Shown here: positions 18,843 to 50,355 of the stretch, piece by piece
Layout: every line of letters begins with the position of its first letter
Position numbering within the stretch: the stretch's first letter is position 1
From: Tetrahymena thermophila SB210
Lineage: Eukaryota; Ciliophora; Oligohymenophorea; Hymenostomatida; Tetrahymenidae
Direction of reading: 5' to 3'
Assembly: GCF_000189635.1 (NCBI RefSeq)
Contig: NW_002476350.1
Location: 249,255 to 313,254 of the forward strand
Length of the DNA stretch: 64,000 nucleotides
Program-made: the position numbers and the translations under genes
The notes under the pieces: model-generated
The model's input: only the letters and a program-made list of their open reading frames with translations
What the model was told of the DNA's origin: nothing
Databases searched by the model: none

Positions 18843-21800
18843 TCATAATTTAATGCTGAGAACTTAACTTGGTAATCTTTAGATTTTTCCATCTATAGAA
18901 TCTACATCAAATAGAAATTTAGATTATTCTTAGTAATTATCAACTGACTTTATTTCAGATAGCACTTCTTTGGAGATATGGATTATCTGCCTATTTTCTT
19001 TTTCAGAAATAGTTTATAAATCTGTTTCTATTTTTAATTCTTCTTAATTAGGTAATACATTATATAGAACAATATCATCATATTATTAACTAAATTTTAA
19101 AAATGGATTTTATTTGTTTTGACTATTTACTCCTTGATACCCTTTTTCACCTTGGAATTAAAATATTTCTTTGGATACAGGACTACTAACTATTATTTAA
19201 TTTGATTCTTTTATATGGTTCAAATTATCGTTTGTTTAGAAAGCACTAAGTTCATTTTTAGAGTGAATAGGTACACTTAAGTTTTCAATTTTTGTAGTAT
19301 TTTAGAGAGTCTGATTGAATGTACTTCTTAGGATTAGTTTATCTGTTTTTGAACTCTTTAAAGTTTTTCTCATACTAGTATACTAAGTTTTTAAGCTCTT
19401 ATTATAAAACTATATATCTTATGTCTCTTGCTTTTTAATATCATTATTTTACCATCTGCTAAACGTTTACTACTTTATAAATTATTTATTTTAGCTTTCC
19501 TAACTACCTGCTGCATTATTATTTTAGTTAGACTTAGTTTATAGAGAACTGTCTTTCTTGTAGTCAGATGAATTAATTAGTTAAATCAAAGATTAAGTTT
19601 ACTCAAGCTTCCATATTTTTAAATCTTTTTCCCATCTAAGCTTTCCTTGAAAAGTTTCATTTATCTATTAGTTAATTTATTTTTATGTTAAGTTTTTTTC
19701 GAAATAAATTTTACTTTATAATCATAAGAGTAATTTCCTAAAAATGTGAGTAGAGGAGGATGTTAGTCTATCTAATTAAGATAATTTTACAAAATGTCTT
19801 TTTTCTCTATTAGCCTTTATTTCAAGTAAGTATCAGGTTAGTTGTAATAAAATGAATATTCTATTAATTAAATCTCTGTTTAAATTTATTCTTTTACCAT
19901 AACTAATTAATAGTAAAATAAATATTAAATATTAATCGTTTAAAAAATATTTAAAATAAATAATAACTTACATTCATAAAATTTGTTTAATTTAATTATA
20001 CTCTTTTTTTCAGATTCTGAATTACGTTTTTTGCAAAATACTTTATAAATTTCTAAAGGCTTTAGAGTTATCTTTAAAGTATATATAAAAACGATAGCTG
20101 CACTTCCAATAGAGATAGGAGCTAAAAATGGGTTTGAAAAATTAATAGCTAAATCCAATCCAACTTTATTCTATAAGTAAAATTTACTGAAGAAATCAAA
20201 AAATATTTAGATATCGAAAAAAGTATTCATGCAAGACAAATAATGAAGCAAAAAGCTAAAATATAAGAGGTTTTTAAAATGCTAAGCCATTTAGTTATCT
20301 AGCGGTTTTGATTTTCTGCAAAATTTGAATACTAAATAATTTTGATTGTAATTTTATTTAATAAACTTTTTAAAATAATTTATTTTTACCTAAAAATTTA
20401 TCAGAATAGAATGAAAATATAAAGTAAAATAGGGATGCAAAATAAATTAAAGGCATTCCATTTCCGAACGTCATCATAAAGAATAGAACTACTAAGTGTT
20501 AAGCATATCTGTATTATATATTAAATTTAGGACCTTACCTCAACTTAAGCCATTCTTTATTATTTTTGCATTTAGTTTTATTTTAATCGCATGTGCAGCT
20601 TTAATCAAAAAAGTATACAACTCTTGATATTATAAAATATATTTAAATTAAATATATTTTTCATGCATAATTAATTAATTAACTACCTTTTATAGTAATA
20701 GAAAAAAATTTTCCCTAATGGATTACTGAGTGCTTTAGAAAGTAAGCTGATCGAAAATATAATACCTACATTTCTATACCATTCAGGATTAAAAGCATAG
20801 TACTGACCTGAGGCAAATACTTTTTACATGAAATTATCATAATTAGTATTAGAGTTGTTAGAATTGTAATTCATATTGGTTAAAAATACAATAAGGGCCT
20901 TTTAATTTAATTAAATTTAGAAAATTTTTTAAATACTTATATTTTGATTGTTTAAATAAATATTTACTGTGTTTATGAAAGAGACAAGAAAGATCTTATT
21001 TATTGTTGAGTTCATCTAGTTATTTAAAAACTTTTCCTTCTCAAACTTAGATAATTTAGAAAGTATTTTTTGTATAACAAAGTTAACTATGAAGAGTACA
21101 ATAACGATTCCAATAGGAAGGAAAAGTTTTGATAAATAGTTTTGATACCAATCATTACAGATAGAGTACAAACTGGATTGTAAATGATATTAATAGTTTT
21201 TTAACCAACAAAAACACTCTATTAAAACTAATCTGTCATAATCTGATGTATCTTAAGAAATATGTTCAATATCCTCTTTTGTTATTGCTTAAAACTATGA
21301 TGTGTTACAATTAACTGATGGATATTAAATTGTTAAAAATTTAGGTAGTGATTTTATAATCCCTATTGCAACAAAAGCTTTTTTAAGTTTAAAAAGAAAA
21401 TATTTCAATAAAAAAATTTTATTGGTAGAATAAAAAGAATTATTTACATCCCACTAAAATAATTATTGACACAATAAATGAAAAAAGTTGTCTAAAAAAT
21501 CTATTTGTAAATGAGTAATATAAATTTTTCCAATTAATGCTATCAGGAGTTACAGTCTTTTCAATTACAAGTACTTTTTAGCAAAAGTGAATTTTATGAC
21601 TATTAAAATCTTAATTTTTACTAAATAAATTTCTGATAGCATAATAAATTTTGTAAAAATAAACAGTAATAATTGAGCGAGACAAAAACCTAAAAGCTCT
21701 CTGCTTCTAATCCATTGTTTCAAAAGTTACCCAAGCAAAATTAATACCATTTTTTTATTAAGACATATCAAAGTCTTTCATTTTCAATTCCTAAATATCA

Positions 21801-25099: not shown

Positions 25100-25753
25100 T
25101 CATATTTTGATTTGGTTGGAGTAAGGTTTTTGATGGAGGGTGATTCCATCATCTAAAGTAGAATAATTTTCTTACATATTACTTTCTTATTTTTTATGTT
25201 TTAAATCGTCATTTATTTTTAAATTAGAATTATCTTCTTGTAAGCTATCTAATTATGAGTTATATTTAACTAATTTTATTTAATATTATAAATAGATTAC
25301 TACTTTTTTCATAAAATAGCTAAATCAAACAAATTATGAGTTCTTGCTTGCTTTTAGAATTTAATTCTTATTCACTTTAAACAATTGATTGTTTTTATTT
25401 TTCATCATTATTGTAGGTTGATTTTATGAATTTAAATTAAAAATAATAATTCATTTGAGTATCTGTTTAGATTAATATTTTAGTTAGAATTTACATTTAC
25501 ATTTTGATTAGAATTTATATCTATATTTTAGTTTGTATTTATATTTACTGAAATTTATTTAGTTACTTTGACCATTATATTTATGGGAATTACTTTTTTT
25601 GATCTTAAATATTTATTTATGTATTTTATGCTGTGATTTTAAATTTTTATTATTATTTTATATATATCTTAGAAATATTTGTATTCCTTACTGCAATTTT
25701 TGAAAAATTCAAATAAAAATTATTATTATTTTAGTGCTAATAGCTAGTTAGAA
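25100..25753 (-). pseudogene. Stranded 3'-end copy of paralog E (C-terminal tail only)
   Basis: On the - strand this region matches the last exon of gene E (32044-32770): the same asparagine-rich repeat (units like NQNINLNSN), the same order of segments and a TGA at the matching place (25102-25100). No upstream channel exons precede it, so it cannot make the channel. It is best explained as a by-product of the 7.1 kb duplication whose right edge fell inside gene E. Several small indels relative to E suggest it is no longer constrained. Confidence 0.78.
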
Positions 25754-25941: not shown

Positions 25942-28900
25942 TCATAATTTAATGTTGAGGTTTTGTAATCTTTAGATTTTGCCATCTAAAGAATCTAAAT
26001 CAAATAGAAATTTAGATTATTCTTAATAATTATCAACTGACCTTATTTCAGATAACACTTCTTTGGAGATATGAATTATCTGCTTATTTTCTTTTTCCTA
26101 AATTTATAAATTTGTTTCGATTTTATGATCATCTTGGTTAGACAATACATTATATAGAATAATTTCTTCATCTTATTAGCTCTATTTAAAAAATGCATTT
26201 TATTTGCTTTGGCCATTTACTCCTTGGAGTCCTTTTTCACCTTGGAGTTAAAAGATTTCTTTAGACACAGGACTACTAACTATTACTTAATTTGATTCTT
26301 TTACATGGTTCAAATTATCATTTGTTTAGGAAGCACTAATTAAGTTGTTAGAGTTAATAGGTAAACTTAAGTTTTCAATTTTTATAGTATTTTAGAGAGT
26401 CTAATTGAATGAACTTCTTAGGATTAGTTTATCTGTTTTCATACTTTTTAAAGTTTTTCTCATACGAGTATACTAAGTTTTTAAGCTCTTATTATATAAC
26501 TAAATATCTTATATTTCTTACTTTTTAATATCATTATTTTACCATCTGTTAAATGTTTGCTACTTTATAAATTATTTATTTTAGCTTTCCTAACTACCTT
26601 CTACGTTATTATTTTAATTAGACTTAATTTATGGTAAACTACTTTTCTTGCAGTCAGATGAATTAATTGGTTAAATATGAGATTAAGTTTACTCAAGCTT
26701 CCATATTTTTAAATCTTTTTCCCATCTAAGCTTTCCTAGAAAAGTTTCATTTATCTATTAGTTAATTTATGTTTATGTTAAGTTTTTTTCGAAATAAATT
26801 TTACTTTATAATCATAAGAGTAATTTCCTAAAAATGTGAGTAGAGGAGGATGTTAGTCTATCTAATTAAGATAATTTTACAAAATGTCTTTTTTCTCTAT
26901 TAGCCTTTATTTCAAGTAAGTATCAGGTTAGTTGTAATAAAATGAATATTCTATTAATTAAATCTCTGTTTAAATTTATCCTTTTTCCATAACTAATTAA
27001 TAGTTAAGTAAATATTAAATATTAATCGTTTAAAAAATATTTAAAATAAATAATAACTTACATTCATAAAATTTATTTGATTTAATTATACTTTTTTTTT
27101 CAGATTCTGAATTACGTTTTTTGCAAAATACTTTATAAATTTGTAAAGGTTTTAGGGTTATCCTTAAAATATATATTATAATTATAGCTATACATCCAAT
27201 AGAGATAGGAGCTAAAAATGGGTTTTACCAATTAATAACTTTACTCAATGCACCACCTTTAGTTATTATTAAATATTTACTGCAGAAATCAAAAAATATT
27301 TAGACATTGAATAAAGTATTAATGGATGTCTAGTAATGAAGCAAAAAGCTTAAATATAAGAGGTTTTTAAAGTGCTAAGCCATTTAGTTATCTAGAGGTT
27401 TTGATTTTCTGCAAAATTTGAAGACTAAATTATTTTATTTGTAATTTTATTTAATAAATTTTTAAAAATAATTTATTTTTACCTAAAAATTTATCAGAAT
27501 AGAATGAAAATATAAAGTAAAACAGGGAAGCAAAATAAACTAAAGGCATTCCATTTCCTAGTGCCATCATAAAGAATAGAACTACTAAATGCTAAGCATA
27601 TCTGTATTAAATATTAAATTTAGGACCTTACCTCAACTTAAGCCATTCTTTATTATTTTTGCATTTAGTTTTATTTTGGTTCCAAGTACATCTTTAATCA
27701 AAAAAGTATAGAACTCTTTAAATTATAAAATATTTTTAAATTAAATATATTTTTCATTTGTATTTAATTAACTAACTAACTACCTTTTATAGTAATAGAA
27801 AAAAATTTTTCCTAATGGAAGACCAAATGCTTTAGTAAGCAAGCTGATCGAAAATATAATACCTACATTTCTATACCATTCCGGATTAAATGCATAGTAT
27901 AGACCTGAATCAAATGCTTTTTACATGAAATTATGATAGGTAGTATTAGAGTTGTTAGAGCTGAAATTCATATTTGTGAAGAACACAATAAGGGCCTATT
28001 AATTTAATTAAATTAAGAAAGCTATTTTAATGTTTATATTTTAGTTTTTACTGTGTTTATGAAAGAGACAAGAAAGATCTTATCTATAGTTGAGTTCATT
28101 TAGTTATTTAAAAACTTTTCCTTCTCAAATTTAGATAATTTAGTAAGTATTTTTTGTATAACATAGTTAACTATGAAGAGTACAACAACGATTCCAATAG
28201 GAAGAAAAATTTTTGATAAATAGTTTTTATACCAATCATTGCAAATAGAGTACAAATTCGATTGTAAATGATATTAATAGTTTTTTAACCAACAAAAACA
28301 CTCTATTAAAACAAATCTGTCATAATCTGATGTATCTTAAGAAATATGTTCTATATCCTCTTTTGTTATTGTTTAATATTTTTTTGTGTTACAATTAACT
28401 GATGGATATTAAACTGTAAAATATGTAGGTAACGATTTTAGAATCCCGACAACAACAAAAGCTTTTTTATTTTTAAAAAGAAAATATTTCTATAAAAAAA
28501 TTTTTTTTGGTTTAATAAAAAGAATTATTTACATCCCACTAAAATAATTGCAGACACAACAAATGAAAAAAATTTTCTGAACAATCTATTTGTAAAAGAG
28601 TAATATAAATTTTTCCAATTAATGCTATCAGGAGTAACAGTTTTTTCAATTATAAGTACTTTTTGGTAAAAGTGAATTTTATGCTTATTAAAATTTTAAT
28701 TTTTACTAAATAAATTTCGGATAGCATAATAAATTTTATAAAAATAAACAGTAATAATTTAGCGAGCCAAAAGCCTAAAAGCTCTCTGCTTCTAATCCAT
28801 TGTTTCAAAAGTTACCCAAGCAAAATCAATACCGTTTTTTTATTAAGACATATTAAAGTCTTTCATTTTCAATTCCTAAATATCAGCCTTTAGTTTAATT

Positions 28901-32043: not shown

Positions 32044-35000
32044 CTCATAATTTTATTAGGAAAGAATAAGGTTTCTGATGGAGAGTGATTTCATCAACAG
32101 AAGTAGAATCATTTTCTTATTAACTAAATTACATATTATTTTCTTTTCTTTTATGTTCTAAATCGTCATTTATTTCTAAATTTGAATTATCTTCTTGTAT
32201 GCCATCTTAATTAGGAGTTATGTTTAACTGGTTTTATTTAATATTATAAATAGATTGCTACTTTTTTCCTAAAATAGCTAAATCAAATATTGAGGGCTTG
32301 CTCTTAGAATTTAATTCCTATTCGCTTTAAACAACTGATTAATTTTATTTTTCATTATGATTGTAGATTGATTTTATGTATTTAGGTTAAAAAAAGTATA
32401 ACTCATTTGAGTCTCTATTTAGATTAATATTTTAGTTAGAATTTATATTTATATTTTGATTAGAATTTAAATTTATGTTTTTGTTTGAATTTATATTTTC
32501 GAAAATTTAGTTACTTTGACCAGCATTTTTAGCTACTGATCTGTTATTTAAAAAGAAAATTATGTCTTTTGTATTATTTTTATCTGCATATATTGATGTG
32601 GGTGGGGATTGCTTTTTTTGATCTTTTATATTTTATTTTAGTATTGAATGCTGTGATTTTAAATTTTTATTATAATCTTTTATTTCTTAGAAATATTTTT
32701 ATTACTTCTCTACAATTTTTGAAGATTCAAATAAAATTTATTTTTATTTCAAAGCTAAAATCTAGTTAGAAAGTATATGAGAACCTAATTTTTAATCGCT
32801 TGAATTCTCTCTTTGATTTGTTTAAGCATTCGATTACTTATTCAAAGCTTTTGATTATTCTAAACGCCATATTTTTAAATCTTGATACCATCTTAATTTA
32901 TCTTTGAATTTTTTACTCAACTATTTATTTTAAAAGTTTAAATAATAATAATAATAATATACTGTATGTATCAAAGTTTGTTAGTTTGTTAGTTTATTTG
33001 TTTATTTTTTTAATATTAAAATTAAAAACCTCTTAATCTAAAATTTAACTTTATAAAAGGGGATTTTAAAAGAGAGAATTTATAGTATTTAAATTTTCAA
33101 GATAAATTATTAAGTGAAAAGTAAGCTTTTGATTACTTTGTAATCGTAGGAATAAGATCCTAGAAATGTCATCTTTGGCTCTTAGTTATCTCTTTATGCT
33201 AATTGTAATTCTAACTATTCTAATCTTTAAATCATTTTCTAAACTAAATAAGTGTCTTTAGAGTTAACATAAATAGTGTAATCAGCAATATCTAATTCTG
33301 TTATGATTTATTCCTTAGATAAAACTGTTTATTTATTTATTTTTTAAATATTATTGTTAAATTTATCAATTTAGTTTTTCTAAATAAATTTTATACATTC
33401 ATAAAAAGAATTATTTTTGATTCTACTGTTTTTCTCAGAAGCAGGAGTTTTTTTTCTAGTAAAAGCAGTGATAATTGTAAAAGGATTAATACAAAAGCTA
33501 AGTATATAGGTTAATATGATGATAACTATGCCAAAGTATTAGGGTATAAGATATCTATTGTCTACAATATTATAAATAAAAGGCTCTTACTCAGATGTAG
33601 ATTTGTCTAAACTTTTTTTATCTTAAATGTCATAAAAAAGCAAAGGACTACCAAAAGTAAAGGAGCTTACAACCCAATGAAGAAAGAAGCTGAAATAAAG
33701 AATTTTTTGAAAAAGCTAAGACATTTATTCGTCTGAAGGTTTGGGGATTCTGCATACACTGAATACTATTTAAATAAATGAAAAATCATTTAAAAAATAA
33801 GAAGCAGGATAAATATAAATTTGATTGCTTACTCAAGTATCTGTCAGCCATTAGTGTAAATAAAAAATACAAAAAAGTTATAAAATACATAAGAGGTATG
33901 CCTGATCCAAAAACCATCATTAAGTATAAAACTTCTAAACTTTATGCATATCTGATTTCTAAATTGAATTTTGGACCTCTCCTTAATTTTATAAATTCCT
34001 AATTACTCTTGCATTTTGTAGCTCTTATATTGGCTGTATAGCCTTAATCTCTCCATATTTCAAACCTTTTATTAAATTTTAACTTTCTTTTACTTTATTT
34101 GATAATAAAATTAATACTTACTTTTTATATGCATAATAGAACAGTTTTTCTAAAGGAACAAAAAAGCATTTAGTAATTATTGTGATTGCATAAATAACTC
34201 CAACATTTCTGTACCACTCTGAATTTAAATCATAGTATTATCCATTAGCAAATACCTGTACCATAAACTATGACTAGTCTTAATCTACATTTTATTATGA
34301 TCTATTAATAAAATAAACCACTAAAACCTAATTATTTAAACAAATTTATTATATAGATATAAGTTATCAGTTAAAAGATTTACTGAATTGATGAATGAAA
34401 TAGTAAATAGTTTTAGGATAATAGAATTTTTCCTTTTATTTTAATAGACTTATTTCTCCAAATTCGTAAATGAAGTATATATTTTTTTAAATATCCAATT
34501 CACAAAAAAAACAACGAAAACAATACCAACAGGTATTGATAGCTTCTCAATGTAATTTATAAACCAATCTCTGCAAACAGACTTTAAATTTGTGTCTTGA
34601 TTGAATTGGTAATTGCTTTTCCAGCAAAAACACTGAATATAAGCCTTTTTTTGATAATCAGGTATGGTATCAGGTAAATTTTGAATATATTTAAGAGTAA
34701 GGTTAGAAAAAAAGGAAGAATAGCAGTTTGCTTAAGGATAATCATCAGTGAGCAATCTATCTAATGATCTTAATATTGCAATACCTATGAAGGCTATTTT
34801 TATAATATTATAAAATAAATGTATGTTTTACCGAATATTCAATAAACTATAAATTAATTACAAATAACAACTATAGCTATTGATGCTATTATTAAAAACA
34901 GCATTCTAAAGAAAATATTAATTTTAGAATAATAAAGATTTTGCCAAATTATGCTATCTGGAGAATAAGGTGTTTCAAGGACTAACACTTTTCTCATAAA

Positions 35001-37791
35001 GTGAAGCTATTTTATTTAATCATTATCACTTTTTTTTTCTTTTTGGAATCTCTCTTGAAACTTATAAATTATCGTATAATAGATATATTTTATTTTAGAT
35101 GTCTATAAAATATTCCATGCTTATTATTTTTGCTCCATAGTTTCAAATGTCACCCAAGCGTAATCAATTTTATTTTTTTTTTAATTAAACTCAAAATCTT
35201 TTGTTCTCAAGGAAAAAAGTTCCTGTTTTAAGTTTATTATTTTTTGTAAATCTAAATTAGCTTTTTCTTTCATGTCAATATCTTAAATGAGCTCATAGAT
35301 TGCTCTCAAATGATTTATTGTAACATTAATCAGGTCTTTAAGTTTTTAATTTTATTTACCATATTCCTATAGAAAGAACTGAATTAATCTTTCTAATTTT
35401 CCTTATATTTTTCCTTACTAAACTTAGCATTTAATTTATCTGTATCTGTAACCAAGCTTAATATCAATAATCTTTATGGGCTATTTATTATTTGTTTAGC
35501 AATACTAATCTAAATACTTTTATTTTGATTAATTCAATATTTAGTTATTCTATTTTTTAAAATTACATTTTATAGATGTTCCCATAATTTTGAGGCAAGA
35601 AATTTTTGTTCTATGTCAGGGAGATTCCTGATTAAAATGCTAAAATGCTCGGGCATACAATTATTCATCGTTATTTAATTTATTGTGAGCTAATCACTGT
35701 ATGTCAGTCTATATTTTAAATGTTAAAAACCTAATATAATTTTATAAATATAGAAATGATATTAAAAATCAAATGCAAATTACGAAAAAACAGCAATCAA
35801 GAATATAAAAAATATTATATTATCAGCAATAACACAATATATTGAAAGGTCTGATTTTTAAATCTTAAAAGAACCAAAATCTACACTAGAATTTGCACAC
35901 GGAAATGATAAATATATCTAATTTTGAAGAAAAAACTGTTTACACTTAGCATCCTATTTAAAGCTTTTCTGTATCATTTCACTAAAATCTATCTAACACT
36001 GAGTTTTATTATTACATAATTCAGTAAAATATTTTTCAGGGCTCGAAAGGCAATTCTCATCAATATTCTCAACTTAAGCAAATTCACATCCTAAAAAATT
36101 TTCAGAGTTACTTTAATCAACTGTATTTATTTTCATATAAAATCATATAAGTAAAGTTCTTTAAAATTAAAATTAAGTTAATTTTTCAAAAATCTAAATT
36201 AATTTTTTAATAATGAAAAACATCATTAATTAATTATTTTAAAATTCATAGTTTTTTAATATTAATATTTTTTAATTAGAAAAATATTAAGTGTGAAATA
36301 TTTTAACTAATTCCAAATCTCATAAAGGTTGTATCAAATACTCCTGTATCACATTGTAATTTTCCACTGTCAAACTTATTTAAGCTCTCAAAAGTACCCA
36401 TTTTACACTCCCATACATCTATTAATAATCAAATATTTGAAATATAAGCAAAATAATAAATTATATTTTTCAGTTCTATTTTTTTTACCATATTTACTCA
36501 ATATTTCCCCTTTTATTAACTTTAAAAAAAATATAACGATATGGCTATTTGAAGAAAAGCAATTTATGTCAAATTTTTTTCAGCACTATTATCTTATTAT
36601 TAGCATATATGATATATAATTTAATATTTAATAGTAACAAAAACTTTCTTATTAACATTTTTTTAGCATCAATATATCTCTATTTGTAAAGAAAAAACTA
36701 AATTTATAATTCCTAAAAAGGGATTTAGTTGATAATTTTTTATTATTATTTAGAGGCAAATATTTAGAAGAATACAGTTTTAAAATATGCATGAGTCAAA
36801 ATTTACCATATCCCCAAGCTCCTGCAAATGTGTAAGCCAGAAAACTGCTATAGTTATTGATGGTTGACATATCTCCTTTCGAAGCAGCTTATATTTTTTT
36901 AATTAAATTAATATTAACAATAATATTTCATTTTTATTTTTAACAAAACAAATACATACCCATAGAATAAAAAACAATTGTTGGAATAGATATGAGCATA
37001 AATAACAGAGTAAGCCATACTAATCCTTTCAGTTGTCTAAAATAAATATTGATAGCTATTCCAAGATTGTTTAAACTCGATTTCTCTTATGAAGAGTAAA
37101 AGCATCCACTACATCCAACTTTTGTGTTGCAATTAGATTTACAGAAGTTATAGTCAAGTTTTTAGTCTTCTTCAGTTTTATATTAAATGTGCATTTTTTT
37201 AAGCTTCAAAAAACATTCATCAATATTAACTTTCTAATTCTTATCTTATTCAGCTAAGTCTACCTATTCATTTAATATTTATTTAGATTTTATTTCCCAA
37301 TACTTAGTCTATTAATTTTACTTCTACTTACTCAAAAGCTGCTGTTTTTGGAATAGGTACACTTAATATGATAGTATTTACTCTCTAGCGGTCTTATTCA
37401 TCACTCTCACTTAAAATAAATCAAATATTATAAATTGATTTATAAAAAAACTATTCTCCAAATCTTAAATCATACATAATGCAATCATGTTTTATATTAT
37501 TTTCATTAGGATAAATACTCTGTTAAAGTTAAACCTCTATAGAGTTTTAGTAACTATGATCTAAAATTTATATAGTTCCATCACTGCATGGTTAAACGAA
37601 ATTATTTTATATATTTGGTTCTAAATTAGCAGAAATATCTATTAATTAATTAGTATCGCTTAATTACTATCATAACTAAACTATTTGAAATTTTTGCAAA
37701 TAATTTTACTCATTAGATCATTGGAGCTATATGACTCATCGCCCTTTCTTTTTTTTAGATATACAAATACTTCAGATGTATTTTAATTCAT
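32044..37791 (-). CDS. CSC1/OSCA/TMEM63-like multi-pass membrane protein, paralog E
   Basis: The most divergent paralog. It starts at the ATG at 37791 (MNQNTSEVFVYLKKRKGDES). After a phase-1 intron an acidic exon reads ISANLEPNIQNNFVQPCSDG, and a phase-2 intron joins an exon with NTIILSVPIPKTAAFEQVE, which aligns to the MPKVEVFQKVE exon of C and D. TM2 lies near 35815-35905 (SIYCVIADNIIFFIFLIAVF). Near 33100-33350 the exon ending FLGSYSYDYK leads, across an intron holding an (ATT)n run, into LSKKFKDKLRWYQDLKIWRL. A tail of about 310 residues follows, with asparagine-rich repeats (NQNINLNSNQ), ending LHQKPYSFLIKL, stop TGA at 32046-32044. It lacks the SLDGK-type terminal motif of A to D. Exons checked are intact. 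Confidence 0.72.
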
Positions 37792-38934
37792 AATTGCTTT
37801 TTAAAATGAATAAAATTTAACAATCTGAACAACCAAAATTCACTGAAGATATCAATTAAATTTTCTATTAGGTTAGTCTATATAAAAGTGTAATAAATTT
37901 ACTTTAACTATAAAAAAAAATCTAAGTATTAATTCAACGATATTCGCATGTAATTTATTTTAATAAAATATGATTTAATAAGCAAGTATTAATTAATTAA
38001 CAATGAAGGTTAATTCAATATAAAATTATATCATTTTTAAAATTTGATTTTTTTTTAATCAAACTAATTTCAAATTGTAATTAATTATAACATCTAAATA
38101 ACCTTTGAGCAAAAATTTAACTATTTTAATTTACTAATAAACTATCTTTTAAAATATTTTGTTAATTTATTCTTATGAATTTGTTTTATTGTTTTTACTT
38201 CACATTTCAATTTTTAAAGTAACTTTTTAAGAAATATTCTATTTTTAAAAATACTTTCTATTTATCATTTGCACGAATTAAAATAATTAATGATTTCTAT
38301 CAATTTTCTTAAATTTAAAATTAATCAATTTAAAATATTTTATCAAATAATAAATACCTTTTTTGTCTAATTTAATTAAAATTTACTTCAAATTTTATTT
38401 GTATAAATGTTATTTTTAATATTAATTATTTATTTTATTTTTTAATATTCTTAGCACATTTAAAATTATAATAAATAATGTAAAATAAATTGATCATTTA
38501 AAAGGATTGTTAAGAAAAATTAATTATTTTATTAAAATAATTTGCAATTATAATAATTTTGTATTTGATAGTTGGATATAGGCGAAAATTAATATTGGAT
38601 GGATTTGACCAAATAAATAAAATATGTTTTTGCCTAATAAAAATTTTGTTAACTATTCTCTAAAATATTTATGAATATCCAATGAATACTATGAATTAAA
38701 GTTACTTTATATTAATAACCAAAAATCACACTTTAAAAATAAAAAAGTGGCATTTATTTAATAAGGATTCCCTTTTTTTATTTCTATTAATAGAATAATA
38801 CAAGAATAATTTTAATCCATTTTTTATTTTTATTTTTTCATATTTTATTATTTAAACATAAATTGACTGGGCTTGTAAAAAATGTTTAGGATTTAAGTGA
38901 ATAATATAAATCATCTTTTTAACTATAAATATTT
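37792..38934. other. AT-rich intergenic DNA
   Basis: Contains the promoter region of the divergently arranged gene E and leads into the repeat array. Very AT-rich with homopolymer runs. No gene is seen. Confidence 0.55.
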
Positions 38935-39151
38935 TAAATAAATAAATAGTTTTAAATTATATAAGAAAAACATTCCCTCTACTAAATATAATATTGATAA
39001 ACAAAGACTTTATATTTCCCCTATAAATAAAAAAAAGACATTCATTATTAAAAGGATTAATTTTGTGTTAATATTATTAAAAATATTAACATTGTATAGT
39101 TTAATATATATATTGTTTATAGGCTATTGAGATTAGTACTTTGTAAAATTG

Positions 39152-39271
39152 AATTACTTATTTATTAAAATAATTCTTTAGAAAAAAATTTAAAACACCA
39201 ATAGAATTTAAAATAATGAATTACTAGATAATTAGCAAGATTTTCTTGTGAGCAAAAAAAATATGTTTTTG
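39152..39271 (+). pseudogene. Decoy 5' end 1 of the giant surface-protein gene
   Basis: Matches the region just before and after the true start at 40212. Its ATG at 39216 begins MNYQIISKIFL and then meets TGA, where the true gene has TGC (Cys). It then ends in the shared TATGTTTTTGT and returns to repeat sequence. It cannot make more than a short peptide. Confidence 0.75.
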
Positions 39272-39390
39272 TAAATAAATAGTTTTTAATTATTTAAGAA
39301 AAACATTCCCTCTACTAAATATAATATTGATAAGCAAAGACTTTATATTTCCCCTCTTTAAAAAAAAATAACATCTACAATAAATATAAT

Positions 39391-39768
39391 AAAAGACATT
39401 CATTATTCAAAGGATTAATTTTGTTTTAATATTATTTAAATTATTAATAAATTATAATTTGATGAATTTTTTGCTTTAGATAACGTTATTTTTTGAGGTT
39501 AGCACTTTGTAAAATTGAAAAAAGACATTCATTATTCTAAGGATAGATTTTGTATTAATATTATTTAAATTATTAAAATTATATATATATCTATTGTTTA
39601 GACAAGGCTATTTGTAGAGATTAGCACTTTGTAAAATTGAAAAAAGAAATTCATTATTCAAAAGATTGATTTTGTATTAGTATTTTTAAATTATTAATAT
39701 TGTATAATTTGATATTTATATATATTGTTTAGGTAAGGCTATATATAGATTAGCACATTGTTAATTTT
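39391..39768 (+). repeat. Three direct repeats of about 125 bases
   Basis: Units at 39391-39519, 39520-39641 and 39642-39768 each start with AAGACATTCATTATT (AAGAAATTCATTATT in the third) and contain TTTAAATTATTAA. Each passes through a TATT-rich stretch with a GTTTAGA/ATAACG block and closes with TTAGCACTTTGTAAAATTGA or a close variant. Units 1 and 2 differ mainly by small indels, which suggests slippage or unequal exchange. Confidence 0.78.
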
Positions 39769-39892
39769 GAATTACTTATTTATTGAAATAATAGTTTAGA
39801 AAAAAATTTAAAACATCAGTAAAATTTAAAAAGAATGAATTACTAGATAATTAGCATGATTTTCTTGTGCGCAATAAATAATATGTTTTTGT
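39769..39892 (+). pseudogene. Decoy 5' end 2 of the giant surface-protein gene
   Basis: ATG at 39835 begins MNYQIISMIFLCAI, almost the true signal peptide, including the cysteine that decoy 1 has lost. A one- to three-base difference after GCGCAAT shifts the frame, and after TATGTTTTTGT the sequence goes into the next repeat unit rather than the cysteine-rich exon. It is better preserved than decoy 1. Confidence 0.75.
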
Positions 39893-40211
39893 AAATAAAA
39901 ATTTTTAATTATCTAAAAAAACATTCCCTTTACTAAATATAATATTGATAAGCAAAGACTTTATATTTCACCTCTTTAAAAAAAACATCTACTATTATTA
40001 AAATAAAAGACATTCATTATTCAAAGGAATGATTTAGTATTAATATTATTTAAATTATTAATATTGTATAATTTGATATATATATATATATATATTGTTT
40101 AGATAAGGCTATTTAAAGAGATTACACATTTTAAAATTGAATGTTATTACTTTTTTATTGAAATAATTGTTTAGAAAAAAAAAAATTAAAACATTAGTAA
40201 AACATAAAAGA

Positions 40212-43200
40212 ATGAATTACTAGATAATTAGCATAATTTTCTTGTGCGCAATCAAAATATGTTTTTGTTCTCATTGTAAGCCAAATTAAATTTATTCTTT
40301 AATAGATTAATCTTGTCATTAGTGTTCAAATTCATGTAACACTTGCTTTAATACGAGTGAATCTGCATGTGTTACTTGTGAGGATAATCTTTTTAAGAGC
40401 TCTGATGATAGTTCTACTTGTGTACAAAAATGTTCAAAAGATGAATTTTTAAATGAAAATTTAGAATGTATGAAGTGTTAAGTCTACGGATGTGCTAAAT
40501 GTGATACAAGCTAAATATGTAATTAATGCGACTAATAATTTAACCTTGATAGAGCAAATAATCAATGTATTTTAATGAATAATGTTTGCCCATTTTAAAC
40601 AGATTTTATTTAGGGACCATCAAACCTAAAATAATGCAATTAAGAATGTCCATAAAGCTTTTATTAGAACATGGAAGCACAAATTTGCGAAGAGACTGTA
40701 AAATGTATTTAAATTGAAGAAAGCTAAAGGTTTTCTTTCACTTAAAGGGTTAAATAAATATAGCCAATTAATGAGGATTAATATTTAGTAGAAGGAAATG
40801 CTTGTACTTTTGCTCTAGTAGATAATAACTGGAAGGTGATTAACATATAAATCCTTTAAAATATAACAAATTATGATTAAATATATACTTTCGGAGGAAT
40901 AGAAACAAATAATGAAAGTTTTATTATTGGAAATTAAGGAGGATGCGTTTCTGGCAGTAAATTGTTGGTGATGAATTTTTAAACATTTGAAGTTGTATTT
41001 GAGAGTATTACAACATTTGATTACTTTGTTAAGTATGTAGACTAAAAAAATCAAATTGTTTTTATGCTATCATATTACTCAGATAACCTTTTATGGTATG
41101 ATGCTATTAACAAAAGTTTAAACTAATATCAGATAGGTTTTTAAACAATTTTTTTATTTTGTTAAATTCAAAGCAATAATACAACAACTTATATTATGTA
41201 AAAAGATGATTAATCAATTTATGTAAATTTCTTATTTTTTTAAATTATTTATTTATTTATTTAATCAATTTTTTAAAAAAAGAAAGGAGTTTTGAATGAA
41301 TAAAGATAGATAATTTTTCAAACTGTTAATTAATTGAATTTAGATTATTATTATTTTTTAGATATAACATAATACAATGATTTCTTTATTTTGACTTCCG
41401 TTTCTCCTGCTTTAGTATCTTACTCATTAGAAATTATAAAAATCGATATTAAATAAGATTTAATATCTTTAGTTTAAGTTATATAACAATTTGATGGGTA
41501 TTAAAATTTATAAAACTTGCAAATTCATTATTCGAGCATTCTTAATTGTATTTTTGTTCAAAATATTGAAAGTTTAAATTTAGAAATGTTCATTCTAAAT
41601 GAATAGTCTGATTAAATAATTTCAATGATGAATTTAACTAATTCATAAATAAATTCATTTCAAATTTTTGAAGATACAGTATCAAACTCAACTATAGCTT
41701 TTATATTTACTGACAATCTCTAAATAGTGAATCTAACAAGTTATTTAATTTCTTATAATTAAGGTTAAGCTTAAAATTATGTAAATTATTTCAAACCATT
41801 AGATTAATCATTTATAACTAACATATCAACAATAACAAATATGATAATTCATATGGATTAAAAAGTAATGGATGTCTTCGTTACTCAAATTCTTTCTCAG
41901 TACAATGATTATTAATAGTAAATTAGATTAAGATATAATCTGACTGATTATACATTTAAGATTTAATACTTAAATCCTTATTAATTTGGTGCAGTTTATT
42001 ATGATTAAAATAATCTTATAAGTTAAAATTAATTCGCTCTTACTCATTTTGATAAAATTGATGATAATAAGTTCATTATCTATGGTAGTCATCAGTCATT
42101 TATAAATTATACTATAGGATATTTAAAAATATAAGAATCTATATATAACTTTTAAAAAACTCCTGCAATTAATACTAGAAGTATTACTTTTAACTAAAAT
42201 GATGGTTCTACTGAATAAACTTTCTAGTTTATTGGTTAAATAGGTAGTTAATATATTTTACTTGAATAATCTACAAATTAAATGGTTTATGGCTATATAA
42301 TCGATATTGAAAAAGAGAAATAGATAATTTCATATAATTATAATTATAATTATTAATAGACAATTTTTGTTTATCTTTAAAATAAAAATCTTTTATTTAT
42401 ATAAAATATACCATAACTCTTTAATCTTAGTAATTCATAAGAGCTTATTGGAAATGATTAAACTCAATTTCTCTCTCTCTTAAGTTATATAATAATCAAT
42501 GAAGACTACCTTGTTTATTAGTCTATCAATAATTATTAAGAACTAATTTTATATTAATTAGATTTAACTACATTCTCATCTACATAAATATTTAATTTTC
42601 ATCAAAATTAAATGACTAGTTTTTGGACTCTTGGTAGCGATTAAATATATCCTGTTATATTTGATAACGATGTTATCTACTTTTGTAATATATAGTAATT
42701 GCCTATTTGCTAGCCTTTTTCTTTGAAAGCTTAAAATTTTATAATGGAAGCTACTTAACTTTAACTTTTTCCTATAAGTAACCCTACCTTTATTTATCAA
42801 AATACAAAGGAAATTTTTTTATTTTATAGCGGAATTATATTAATATGTTCATAAGATTTGAAAATTCAAACACTACTAAATCTAGGAATTTAATATCCTT
42901 CTAGTTAATACTCAAAATAATTAAATATTTTTTAAAGTGAGAGATATGTGTTTTATTATGATTCAACCTATTTTTATAAATTCGATATGGAGTTAAAAAA
43001 ATTCTAAGTTTTAGAAGCTGAGATATCAAAAGTTTTGGAATTACAGGAATAAATAAATTTTTACAATTTAAATAGCACTTTTTATGTAAAATAATCAGGA
43101 AAAATAATTGACACTGAAAATATGATTATTTTAAACACATAATAAGAGGATAATAACAATTTCATTGGTTAAATTAAAATAGATGAATCATAATTACACA

Positions 43201-46200
43201 TATTCGAGTCTGTAAATGGAGTTTATTGGTATAAAAACTTGTTAAATATGCCTTTTAAAGTATTAAATTTTACTTCAAGTTAAATTCTATAAGATCTTTA
43301 TTTTGAATAAGGGTAAAATTTAATAGCATTATATGACAGCAGTTGCTAATGTGTTTAAATTTATGATTTTATAAAAAACATCAAATTGATCAGCTAAGTA
43401 GTGTTTAATGTTAAATTCGATTTAACGATTAAGTTAGTTGATTGGAATAATTATAGTTTTATTTACGTGAGTGGTTCTACTTTTTATCTTTAAAATCAAA
43501 ATAATAATATTATGAATGAATAAATTGGTTTATTAGACTCAAATGTCATAGAATACGAATATTGTTTTTAACAATAGATTATTGTTGCCAAAACTTAGTA
43601 ACAAAATCTATACATAATTAAAGTAATTTTAATTTTAAGAATTTATTATTTTAAATTTTAATTAAATTAAATAAAATAGATTTAAGAAAAAGCCTCATCA
43701 AAAGTAAAAACAAACTTTTAATAAATGAGTGGTTAGATTGTTTTATAACTTAAATTTGCTTTGAAATGTAGTGAAAATATATTAATAATTTATTCTCCTA
43801 TTGTTTAAATTATCAATTTACTTACTGCATAAGATCAAGAGCAATTTTTATAAGTAATTTAAAATTTATCTTTCATTAAAATTATGTATCATAATTTATT
43901 TTTTTATTAAATCATAGTTTAATTAGCGATTAAACCAAAACTAAAACTATGCATAAAATATACCAATTGTTAATGTAAAAGAATAGTTAATAATATGCCT
44001 ATTTGATATAGAAAATAATTATTTTTAAAGAAATGACTATTTAGCAATAAACGTAGAATATTTTGATTATAGATAAAATAATACAAATATCTATTATGAT
44101 TTATAGTATAGCGCTTTGATAGGAGTAACTGGAGTTATAAAAAAAATAAATATTATGACTTTTCCAGGTGATTAAAATTTTTTTACCTACTACACAGCAA
44201 ACTCATTTTTGTAAGGAGCAACATATTATTTTGAGGATCAAACAAGTATAATATTAGTTGATACTACTCCTGTTATATACTTATGTAACTATGTAACAAG
44301 AAATATAACAACATTCAATACAATTGTTAAAGATACTTAAGGTATTTAGATGGATTAAAATAAAAATATCATTTTCTTATATTCTTACTAATTTATTTCT
44401 GCTTTGAAGTTTCCAGAAATGTAACTTATAGAGATGTTTTCATTACAATAGTATAACCAAGCAAATATCTTATCTATTTACGTAAATTAGCTTATTTAGG
44501 TGCTAATAGTTTAAACAAATACTGTTTTTATTGCTTTTGATCTTACAGAAGTACTTTATTAATCAGAAATAAACTTATTATAGTATTAAAATGCTTAGAG
44601 TGTTTATTTAAATGAAGACTATTAAATTTATTATAGTATTTCAAATCTCTCACTCAATCTATTTTATAAAGCATAACTTGTTGACTCCTTGCTATTCGAA
44701 ATCTCCCAATAAAATATTTATCCATATTTAACTGAGCCAATATTAATATCAGAAAATTAATTCATATATATTACATTTAATTATTTAAATCTAATTTAAG
44801 TAAACCTCTAAAACAACTCTTTAGAGCTTATATCTAGAATTCAATTACAAAGTACGCCTGATAACTTCTTTTTTGATTCAAGCTCAAATTAAATACTTTT
44901 ACTGTACAAGTCAAACTTTTAGTTAAATAGTTTAAATACCAAAATATTTAGTTAAGGTGAGATATTATTAACTAATTTTTAACAAGGTGATATATCAAAA
45001 GCATTCATATGTAGTAATTATATTATTGTTCCAAGTAATAACTCTTTATAAATATACAACATCAAATCTAACTAAATAAAGAATATTGTTTTACCTAATA
45101 CTGAAGGTAAAATAAAATTAGCTTTTAAATTACAGATAAAGTAAATTAAATCACAGGAAAATAATTGGTGGAAAATTCCCTTTGAAGATAATAAAAGATT
45201 TAATACATATGATTGGGTTTAAGAAGGAAATTTAACAAAAGATATTTTTATATTGCAAAAGTAAGATAATTAAAATACAATGTTAATTTTAGATTTGCTA
45301 AAGATAGAGTTCACTTACCAAAAAAATATAGATAATTGGTAAATAATGAGTGTTGTAAATGATCCTATTAAATAACTCATTTATACTGTTAGTAACGAGG
45401 CAACTACAAATATATTTAGATATACTTTAGATTTTTTAACTTCGATTCAAAATCCTTGCTTGAAATAAGCAATTATATCTTTCGATTAAAATTTTGTATA
45501 TTCTATTTGCCCAAATGATATTACTGTGTATAATGGAATAAGCTTTGAACAATAATTTCCTTCACTAAACACAGGAATTAATGAAGCAAATAATTTAATA
45601 AATATGAATTATAATAACCATTTTATTATAGTTTAAAAAAATAAATTATCCATAATATAACTGAAATATAATGACACATATTCAAATATTTATGAATACG
45701 AATAAAAAAACACTTTTTTATAAAGTTTTTAGCTAATCATAGATACTAACAATGAAAGATATTCATCTTTATTGGTTTCTAATTACTAAAATATAAGTTA
45801 AATTATATTACCCTTATCAACAAATAAATTATGTTCTGTTTTAATTGAACAGCAGGATAGAACATCTGAAAATATTTATTCAAAAACTGTTATTAATGAG
45901 ATAACTTAATCTATTTAATCCACTTAATAAATACTTTCAATAATAGAAATAGAATACCAAGATGGATAATCTATTGAATAAATAGACATTAATTTTCAAG
46001 GCTAAAATAGAGATGAAACACACAAATTAAGCTTGAGGTTAAAATCTAAATATGAAAATTAAATCAAATGGATAAATGATATTTAATTTTCTAATCAAGT
46101 TTTTAATTTATTTTTAAAACAAATGTCTCTATCGTTAGCAACTCAAATAAATTTAAATTAAAATGGAATGATGGAAAATTTTTAAATGCTGAATGTTTCT

Positions 46201-49200
46201 TTAAATTTAAATGAATCACTAAATCTACAAAATTTTAAAAAGGTTTATCTATAATAAGTTTCCATTTAATTGGTAAATTCTAGCTCAATTTAAATTTCGA
46301 ACTGTGAATCAGTTGTCATAGAATAATTATTCTTAGAAAATATTGAAAGACATGAAAGTTTTATATTTATTTTAAATAACAATACTAACGTTTTAATTAA
46401 CAATGTTTATCTTTCTAATTCAAGCTCAAGTAATATTTTTTAGATAGGTTACAGTCAAATGGTAAATATTTCAAATTTTAATGTTACAAATTGCTAATAT
46501 TTATACAAAGTCTTTGATTTATGGTAAATAAATGATCTTAAAATTGTGAATACTTCAATAGTTTAAAGTGATTAATCTACAATTTATTTTATATAAAGCA
46601 CGATTATTTCAAATATTTAAAAAATCTAACTCACCCAATCAACAAAAAATATTGTAATTTAAATAAAAGAATAAGATATTAATACAGTTTAGTATCTAAG
46701 TGATTCTGCTATTTTAAAAGATATTGAGATATTTAATTCTGTAGACACCATATTTTCTTTTAAAACTAATAAATTTGAAGTTTCTCAAATCAATGTTGAT
46801 CTTCTCTAAGTTTCATAAACTATTTTCACTATTCAAGCTAGTTAAATTAATATTACTAACTTAAATATTAGAAATACGAAATATTTGTTTTCCAAATTAG
46901 ATATTAATTTAATATATATAATAAGTTTTAATAACTCATAAATAGAAAATGTCAATTCAAATAACAATTAAATTTAGTTCCTTTCAATGAATCAATAAAA
47001 TAGTGAAGGATATGCTCTTATTTCTAAAGCAAAATTTATGAATTCTACTATTCTTAACAACAATCCCTTAATATTTTTAAATCAATTGTCTAGTATTGAT
47101 TTAAAAAGTGTACTAATAAAAGATGTAAACAATATAAATAGTAAACACATTTCTATACTTACGATATAAAATTGCGATTTAGTTTCTATTTCTGAGAGCT
47201 ATTTTACAAAAAATACAAATAGTAATGGTCCAGGAGGTGCTATTTATGCACTTGATAACACTTAGATAACAATATAAAATTCAATTTTTTGGCTTAATAC
47301 TTGTAAGTTATAAAATGGTGGAGCTATTTATATGATTAATACTATTACACAAGGAGTTTTATAAATATATTAATCTTAGCTAATAGAAAATAAATCAGTT
47401 TATTCTTCAGGTGGCTCAATTTATCTCTAAAATAATAACATGATCATGTAAAACTCGGTTATAGCTTCAAATTAAGCTTAGATTGGTGGAGGGATATATT
47501 ATGTTGAGGTTATGCCAGATTTTTTAATTGATCTATAATAAGGCAATAAAAATAATAATACTTTTAAAGACAATCTAGCACATGTTTATGGATAGAATTT
47601 TGGTTCTACTTTAAGGAAAGTATTTATTAATTTAGAAAACATAAAAATTCCTAAAAATAGTGTAAAGTTATATGAAAATAAAGTAATATTTATCAAATAA
47701 TTTAAAAGTGGAGATTAAATAAATTTTGAACAAATATAATTGCTTGATGAAGAAAATAATCCAATTAGATTTATAGATGTTAACTCAACTGATTTTTCAT
47801 TACTAAGTAGCGATGTTTAATCTTTAGTGCAATAAATAAGTGTTTCTGTATAGTGGAATTAAGAAAATAAAGAAATACAATGCATTGGATAACTTTAAAC
47901 AAAATAATTTATAAACGGGGGTTTTAACTTAGATGCTCAGATATTTTACAAACCTATTTCTGAGTTGGTACTAAAAATAGTGAGCAATTCATTTCCTTCA
48001 TTAAAAGATTCAAATGGAAATATTGTGGTAAATTCAGGTTAAATAGAATTAATTTTGAATATAGAATTAGAGTAGTGTTCAATAGGATAAATATTTAAAA
48101 AATACGGTAACTCAATAGCATGTGAATCTTGCCCAGATGGTAAATATTCTTTAAGTTTAAATGACCAAGAGTGTAGAGAATGCCCTGATTCAGCTGTCAT
48201 GTGCATAGGTTCTAATATCTAATTAAAAAATGAATATTGGAGAGAAGATGAATATACTGACAATATTATCTACTGTAGTTTTAACCCTCAATCATGCTAA
48301 CCATAACTTGTTTCTTCTAAAGTACTTTTAATCTTTTTAAAATTTTCAACTTAAAATAAACTGTTTTTTTTTTTTTCATCAAATTTCTAATTAAAATGCT
48401 TTTATTAAATAAAGTTTTACTGCATTGAAGGATATAAAGGTCCTCTATGTTATTAGTGTGATACATATGGCGAAATTTGGGGAAATAGATATTCAGAAAT
48501 TTATAATCATGGAGATTGTTACAAATGCGAAGAAAATATTTTAAAAATAATACTTTACAATTTTCTAGTATACTTAATGATTTCTCTTTATATAATTATA
48601 ATTCTAAGAAGAATTATAATGCAGCTAGAAGTTAAGGTTAAAGGATATTTTTTAAATAAATTGGAAATTATTTATTTAGGATCAACATGTAAGATATTAT
48701 TCCATTTTAATAGTTTTAAAAAAAATTTATTAAATAAAAAGTAAATTAATCTGATAGATCATAAATTATTTCGAAAATTCTCACTGATCATTTATAAATA
48801 TTATCGTTAGTATGCTCATTTACTACGAAAATGCCTGCTTTTTTTACTGTACCTATTTAGCTATCAGGAAATTCAGTTAGTGTGGCTAGTAAATCTATTG
48901 ATTGTGTTTTTTCTAAACACCCAAATTTACAACCTTTGTGGTTATTGTAATTTCTCTGGTCTTTTACTTTGCCTGCAGGAATAATTATTTTTTACTTGGT
49001 TTAAGCATTTATTTTAAAGCGATTACAAATAGATTTTTTTATCAGGTATTTATAAACTGCAGCTATTTTTATTTATTTTTACTTTTACCCTATGATAATT
49101 ACTCTTGCTATTAGATCTATTAATTGTATAACAATAGGAGATAAAAAATATTTAGATCTAGATTTTGGAATTGAATGTTATGATAAACATTAGCATAAGC

Positions 49201-50355
49201 CGTACATATTTTTATTTACCATTCCTGTTATTTTTATATGGGGTATTTTAATACCTTTATTACTATTCTATAAAATTCACGATGCTAAATCCAAAAAAAA
49301 ATCGATTATTAAATAAATAAAATATTCTTTCTTATTTGCTGGATATAAAAAACAATACTATTACTGGGAATTTTGGAAATTGTCTTATAAAACAAGTTTG
49401 ATTTTAATATCTGTTTTACTCAAGCAAGAAATCTATTTAAAGGTAACATACATAAATAATATTTTAATATTAGTTTTAAAATAATAACTTTAATAAATAT
49501 TAATTAGGTTTCTGTTATGAATCTCTCTTTGGTGATCTAATTTTTTTTATTATTTAAATCACAACCTTATTTAAACAAATATTTTAATAGTTTATAGCAA
49601 ATATCTACTTTAATATGTATAATATCATTAAATTTGTGTATGATACAGATAGGAGGTGATTAAAATGATTTAATAAATTAAATATTTTGGATAGGTATGA
49701 CTATGCTTTTTAACTTCCTTTTTGTAGCAATATTAATAATAGGATTATTAAGACTAAAAATTCATAATCAATAAGAGTAACGAACAGGTTTCTAAAATTT
49801 CATCTTTTCACTTAAAAATAAATATCCTTAATTACTTGATGTGTAAATATAAAATAATTAAAAGGTAAGTTCTTTGCTTAAGTTTAAAAAATTAAGATAA
49901 AAAATAAAATAATTGATGAAAGAATTAAAAAAAAATGACATATTATCCTTAGAATATCAGAAACTTAAATTAGATTCAAAAAATCATTAAGACTCTATTT
50001 TTACACAATCTTCTCCCTAAACGCATTAAATAAATTAATTTGAAATAAATGATGAAAAATTTGACACTTTATAAAATAATAGCTCTAATAAAACAATGAA
50101 AAATAAATGGTCTTACTACACAAGAAATCCAAAAAAAAATTCAATTTGTAATATTGATTTATTTATTAAAATAATTTTTAAAAAAAATTTTTAAATTTAA
50201 AAATAGTCTTAAAAGATAGAATATCTGAAAAGCCAATCTTATTACATAGTAATACAAGGGAGAGTAATAGTTGTGAAACTGAAAGTTCCTTATAAAATAA
50301 TCAATATAATAGTCACCATAAATTTTAAATACAGCTTTCTCTAGACAAAAGTTGA
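40212..50355 (+). CDS. Giant cysteine-rich beta-propeller/beta-helix multi-TM surface protein
   Basis: Roughly 3000 residues, with several introns only partly mapped (one fits 41223-41310). ATG 40212 gives a signal peptide (MNYQIISIIFLCAIKICFC). Order: a furin-like cysteine-rich region (CHQCSNSCNTCFNTSESACV, then CMKCQVYGCAKC) to about 40750; a long propeller-like region with recurring short strands; from about 45900 a parallel beta-helix (pectin-lyase-like) region with repeated GGAIY/GGGIYY turns near 47240-47510; a second cysteine-rich region (CESCPDGKYSL, CRECPDSAVMC) near 48120-48200; an EGF-like GYKGPLCYQCDTYGE near 48430. Several TM helices follow from about 48545 (LYNFLVYLMISLYIIIILRR) to 49750. 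The cytosolic tail ends SLDKS, stop TGA at 50353. Signal peptide and cysteine-rich ectodomain place it at the cell surface. Architecture is typical of large uncharacterised ciliate membrane proteins; function unknown. Confidence 0.78.

Follow-up and report, generated by a model that had tools for sequence, protein, structure and literature searches.

The 5' end of a large gene of Tetrahymena thermophila SB210 is repeated twice in tandem directly upstream of the gene, and local direct repeats recur at the 5' ends of many of its sister genes. With a probability of roughly two in three, we read the locus as one case of a family-wide tendency, in which promoter-proximal DNA of a fast-evolving gene family is duplicated and the duplication is tolerated since the last copy stays intact.

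The large gene and its host DNA

We analysed a stretch of 64,000 nucleotides (contig NW_002476350.1), referred to here as the window. It comes from a ciliate genome in which TAA and TAG encode Gln: G+C is ~21%, stop-free frames reach up to 2012 codons under translation table 6, and under table 11 no frame in the window reaches 120 codons. The assembly in which it lies (101 Mb, 445 contigs) looks like a macronuclear one, and T. thermophila is listed at 103.0 Mb and 22.3% GC in Table 1 of PMC6564038. The large gene (40212..49978, + strand) was delimited by two open frames under table 6 (40212-44006 and 44155-49095) and by a C-terminal match to the family that extends to 49978. A signal-peptide-like stretch at its N-terminus is followed by a Cys-rich part, and the second open frame is Cys-rich with a hydrophobic part at its end. 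The product is probably a membrane protein, and from these features we infer the tentative label ‘surface protein’.

A three-module array upstream of the gene

The earlier note on this DNA, made from the letters alone, had claimed that the 5' end of the gene stands twice more upstream (ATGs at 39216 and 39835) and had proposed a self-comparison of the region. Our self-comparison of 37000-42000 bore this out, resolving three tandem homologous modules (38939-39272 vs. 39892-40268, 77% over 380 columns, E = 1e-81; 39642-39892 vs. 40005-40268, 85%, E = 2e-78; 39025-39519 vs. 39634-40141, 83%, E = 1e-145), and the ATGs at 39216, 39835 and 40212 share one alignment column. The modules lie head to tail on the + strand and were delimited by self-comparison and alignment, with translation for the first two. 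Module 1 (38939..39272) holds the promoter-proximal block, the ATG at 39216 and a copy of the leader that TGA interrupts at codon 12. Module 2 (39272..39889) is like module 1 but internally expanded, with the ATG at 39835 and a frameshifted leader; its expansion, absent from the earlier note, is a nested triplication (39391..39767, + strand) of a ~125-bp unit, found by self-comparison and TRF, with copies at 39391-39519, 39520-39641 and 39642-39767 (TRF: 39391-39719, period 122, 2.6 copies, 83% match). Module 3 (39890..40268) is the gene’s own promoter-proximal block, ATG at 40212 and leader.

Every module opens with an AAATAAA stretch, carries between this stretch and the ATG the block AACATTCCCTYTACTAAATATAATATTGATAARCAAAGACTTTATATTTC, which is identical in all three bar two bases, and ends its leader in ATATGTTTTTGT. 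Past the leader, modules 1 and 2 run directly into the next module and only module 3 runs into the gene. Both internal junctions are ATGTTTTTGTAAATAAA (+57 to -330); homology to the gene stops at ~+57, the next module begins there, and neither self-comparison nor alignment found gene-body remnants downstream of modules 1 and 2. Both upstream 5' ends are thus bodiless, and their frames are broken in the way that the earlier note had described. The leader frame of module 1 (39216..39251, + strand) ends in TGA after 11 codons (MNYQIISKIFL* under table 6), and in that of module 2 (39835..39890, + strand) a 1-nt insertion seen in the alignment breaks the frame after about codon 14 (table 6 reading MNYQIISMIFLCAINNMFLQIK... 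after the insertion). The earlier note had named an assembly error as something that would refute the array, and we rejected one: modules that are 77–85% identical, and so 15–23% different, with private indels, do not stem from a single copy that the assembly tripled.

The nearest paralog has a single module

The nearest paralog, C95, is 80% identical to the gene over the first 308 residues (87% in a comparison using table 6) and has one module only. It resembles the array locus on both sides, in its gene body and in its upstream flank: the unduplicated flank of module 1 (38836..38938, + strand) matches the flank of the single C95 module by blastn (38836-38947 vs. C95 upstream, 99/120 columns identical, E = 7e-31). 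That C95 has a single module, beside a flank like the one before module 1, argues that the array is the product of local tandem duplication of ~-330 to +57 rather than of body loss, and the flank match points to C95 as the pre-duplication state; lost gene bodies at this locus are unlikely on the same grounds. In trees, modules 1–3 cluster against C95 with moderate support (0.963 FastTree local support, 79 UFBoot). Most simply, a single duplication was followed by a second step within the array and by the nested expansion. Among the three readings that the earlier note had offered for the array, debris of unequal exchange in a formerly tandem family comes nearest, although the C95 flank and the grouping of the modules speak here against descent from tandem genes that lost their bodies.

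Outside the leader, and summed over four blocks, modules 1 and 3 differ from C95 at 56 and 57 of 263 columns, so that the gene’s own copy is under no visibly greater constraint; module 2 is nearer to C95 (45/263), and module 3 differs from it by 0.10–0.27 depending on the block. To judge the leader we compared the first 300 codons of seven of the 11 clade-A genes (L024, L025, L026, L028, L029, L031 and L032). Codons for the same amino acid differed at 0.125 in the leader vs. 0.10–0.19 in later bins, and we therefore rejected a special nucleotide-level conservation of the leader, which could have been a sign of gene conversion or of a DNA element. This result and the breakage of both frames leave the proposal that the copies are silent leader cassettes unsupported. 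Amino-acid differences among these close paralogs (0.13–0.25 per codon, depending on the bin) are roughly on a par with synonymous ones (0.10–0.19).

Direct repeats are frequent at the 5' ends of the family

The gene’s first 308 residues matched at least 71 places, many of them in tandem, and a C-terminal query, which maps gene ends, matched at least 55. From the former we drew 50 5' ends, leaving out L085 (C9:549345), whose ATG could not be placed, two C10 paralogs and C40:994427, and excluding partial N-terminal pieces from the count; from the latter we took 19 3' flanks as a control (18 plus that of the window gene), mostly of genes without a family member close downstream. A 5' end was scored as positive when the segment from -1400 to +100 of the ATG held a direct repeat of length ≥60 and shift ≥40 at E ≤1e-6. 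We found such repeats at 22/50 family 5' ends, 18 of them with ≥90 bits, and at 1/19 family 3' flanks (Fisher p=0.0017). By the same criterion 1/50 dinucleotide-shuffled family 5' segments was positive, which together with the E-values of the self-comparison rules out chance AT-rich similarity. Non-overlapping window segments outside the array gave 1/40 (Fisher p=4e-6, window gene omitted), and the regions upstream of Rab genes gave 1/10 (Fisher p=0.07, a small set). The earlier view that repeated 5' ends are unusual therefore stands against most controls, but the ten Rab genes are too few to carry it.

The one Rab upstream control with a repeat (L055, C280:53160-54600) holds a 241-bp tandem repeat; 5' repeat arrays do occur outside the family.

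Family genes are related and hence not independent in these counts, and half of the 22 positives come from two clades, delimited by sequence similarity and contig rather than by a tree: clade B (5/5) and the C129/C139/C89 clade (6/6, two of them weak). With both clades removed, the excess over family 3' flanks was not significant (11/39 vs. 1/19, p=0.08), while that over 3' flanks and Rab genes together was 11/39 vs. 2/29 (p=0.03) and, with the window gene also removed, that over window segments was 10/38 vs. 1/40 (p=0.003). In clade A, six of 11 members (C95 and five others) have no array. The edge of the repeat that faces the gene falls within -183 to +99 relative to the ATG in 20 of the 22 positives, a descriptive figure without a null model, given that the scan itself ended at +100. 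A 5' bias of repeats in this family is likely, and it rests partly on few clades. The array upstream of the window gene is more than a one-off accident, as similar arrays precede many sister genes, and this recurrence does not amount to a proven mechanism.

Different clades carry different units

Unit types differ among clades and range from ~31 bp to ~650 bp. All five members of clade B have self-matches that stop at +3 or +4 relative to the ATG, the spacing of units in this clade is ~150 to ~650 bp, and most upstream units found there share the junction ...CAAAAATGA followed directly by TCAAAAT, or a close variant of it; L034, L037 and L039 each have one exception, that of L039 being a unit in which TTG has replaced ATG. 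When the units were placed in a tree, some upstream units from one C31 paralog paired with those from the other, as did the units next to the gene (supports ~70–100), whereas the upstream units of L036 cluster together, with lower support for the whole L036 group. Because upstream units group with upstream units and gene-next units with gene-next units, this clade B array seems to predate the divergence of the C31 pair.

The C129/C89 clade has a 31-35-bp minisatellite (AAACAAACTAGCTAATAAACAGTAAAAA) upstream of the ATG in L067, L079, L080 and L081, with up to ~33 copies in L081 (TRF). L068 and L082 hold about one copy by eye and were counted as positive through another, longer repeat. Two further bodiless 5' ends, 98% alike, lie before L046 (C21:66200-66433 and 66626-66859); they match the gene to ~+397 and +337 and have no start codon, and their frame shifts near codon 80. 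Decayed copies were seen in C174 and in two C189 genes, and in several other family copies the ATG or the frame is missing. Among the matches listed, partial N-terminal pieces occupy ~10 places and partial C-terminal candidates at most two (C23:34269 and possibly C95:31699), counts that are only indicative, as the N- and C-terminal queries are neither equally long nor equally conserved. A broken family member, L004 (C132:30119), has in-frame TGAs, one of them at codon 12 as in module 1.

Discussion

We propose that a tandem duplication of ~-330 to +57 of one gene, with ATGTTTTTGT joined to AAATAAAT at the junction and ~1 nt of microhomology there by eye, would have been followed by a second round within the array to give three modules, and that a smaller nested triplication would then have arisen in module 2. 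The upstream copies would have lost their frames and aged as ordinary non-coding DNA. Across the family, promoter-proximal DNA would expand repeatedly into tandem arrays of unlike units, and those expansions that reach the coding region would leave bodiless 5' ends. Duplications with one end upstream and the other within the gene can be tolerated because a whole gene remains behind the new copy. While the modules, their order and breakage, their local origin and their recurrence are shown, the duplication hot spot and the tolerance of its products are what we infer. Several observations sit poorly with this proposal, besides the weight of two clades among the positives and the repeat before one Rab gene. 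Bodiless 3' ends seem rarer than bodiless 5' ends, and a neutral model leaves this sparing of 3' ends unaccounted for, because the mirror event should be tolerated too. In clade B all repeats end at +3 or +4, and unit types seemingly predate a split of paralogs, which suggests long retention rather than debris. Finally, module 2 is nearer to C95 than modules 1 and 3 are.

In the strongest competitor, extra promoter-proximal copies would alter the level or timing of expression of a paralog and their number would be selected, with the leaders as passengers or as upstream short frames. Arrays that are recurrent, 5'-biased, clade-specific and near the ATG would fit this, as would the uniformly positive clade B and C129/C139/C89 clade (the latter with its two weak cases) and the unit types that two paralogs have in common. 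Against it stand the six clade-A members without an array, C95 included, the conservation of module 1, which is no better than that of module 3 (though that of module 2 is somewhat better), and the block-by-block divergence of module 3 itself from C95. Selection of this kind is improbable in our estimate. We would favour a promoter hot spot over arrays retained for an effect on expression by about four to one, on the grounds that several close relatives lack an array, that unit types vary with the clade, and that the conservation of module 1 does not exceed that of module 3. A bolder version strikes us as slightly less probable again: many members might bear self-made, clade-specific 5'-end arrays (promoter, in some with the start codon) whose length and unit type would set which paralog is expressed, the bodiless ends acting as decoys or enhancers.

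It is doubtful that whole tandem genes once stood here and lost their bodies by deletion in the germline or in macronuclear development, leaving 5' ends behind. The family does sit in tandem arrays, fragments of gene 5' ends precede members with open 5' ends at C18, C31, C189, C21 and C23, and germline gene segments are deleted at the Tetrahymena mating-type locus, as described in PMC3608545; however, identical junctions (+57 to -330) and the C95 flank match are what tandem duplication predicts, and deletion would need two identical events or one that was copied.

By analogy with the 70-bp repeats of trypanosome VSG genes, the arrays could instead serve as homology for exchange between paralogs, since they lie directly upstream of diverse, surface-like members and units are alike within L036; we think this very unlikely, given that clade-different units would not pair across the family and that synonymous divergence is not clearly lower in the leader. 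Least probable are alternative first exons spliced to the gene from the GTAAAT that ends modules 1 and 2, which as a candidate donor stands at both junctions and keeps the frame with some acceptors for module 2, but GTAA occurs ~5 times per kb in the region, a TGA precedes the donor in module 1, those acceptors for module 2 that preserve the frame would either repeat part of the leader or drop the leader and Cys-rich sequence, and elsewhere in the family several copies are missing the ATG or frame.

Promoter-proximal duplication, the reading that we prefer, has partial parallels elsewhere. In yeast, tandem repeats in promoters reportedly alter expression; there too the repeats lie in promoters of intact genes and unit number differs among relatives, whereas the units here are often larger, some include a start codon and leader, and they are known from sequence only. 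In the Pneumocystis MSG system, as described in PMC2743713, one UCS serves ~80 bodies that lack a UCS (UCS/CRJE). What the two systems share is a family of surface-protein genes with a conserved 5' block, but the genes examined here have their own 5' end and it is the surplus 5' ends that are bodiless; neither of the two upstream copies at this locus has an intact leader frame of the kind that MSG-like silent cassettes would have. As with the 70-bp repeats of Trypanosoma VSG genes, so far as we compared them, repeat blocks adjoin members of a variant surface-protein family, although the units here are not common to the whole family and are known from one assembly.

Within ciliates, the MTA/MTB genes of Tetrahymena described in PMC3608545 also stand in arrays as incomplete genes and have Cys-rich and membrane parts, but those incomplete pairs are germline and head to head, whereas the present copies are head to tail and apparently macronuclear. 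According to PMC6564038, species-specific genes of Tetrahymena often lie in tandem, evolve fast and show weak expression in axenic culture, with growth-factor-receptor (GFR) Cys-rich genes among their top classes. Compared by description, our family resembles that class in its tandem arrangement, fast protein change and Cys content, and differs in its repeated 5' ends, which the description in that paper does not include. In the titles and abstract openings of the open-licence papers listed we found no report of such arrays in ciliates, which is weak evidence of their absence.

Tandem duplication as such is ordinary, but a 5'-biased set that has arisen repeatedly in one family is less common. 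A mutational bias would mark promoters in the germline nucleus, which PMC3608545 describes as silent, as a hot spot of duplication; a selective one would offer a route to learn how numerous similar surface-like genes come to be expressed separately. Both readings are testable in Tetrahymena.

Other features of the window

Pfam returned nothing for the first and third frames of the large gene and, for the second, two matches, both under their cut-offs; the first frame had no match in PDB, and neither had another protein of the window. Scans of the window for tRNAs (bacterial settings) and against Rfam were empty. Two pairs of matching short tandem repeats (19905-19966 and 26995-27052; 25466-25547 and 32417-32498) each lie ~7 kb apart, which suggests that a ~7-kb unit may be duplicated in the window.
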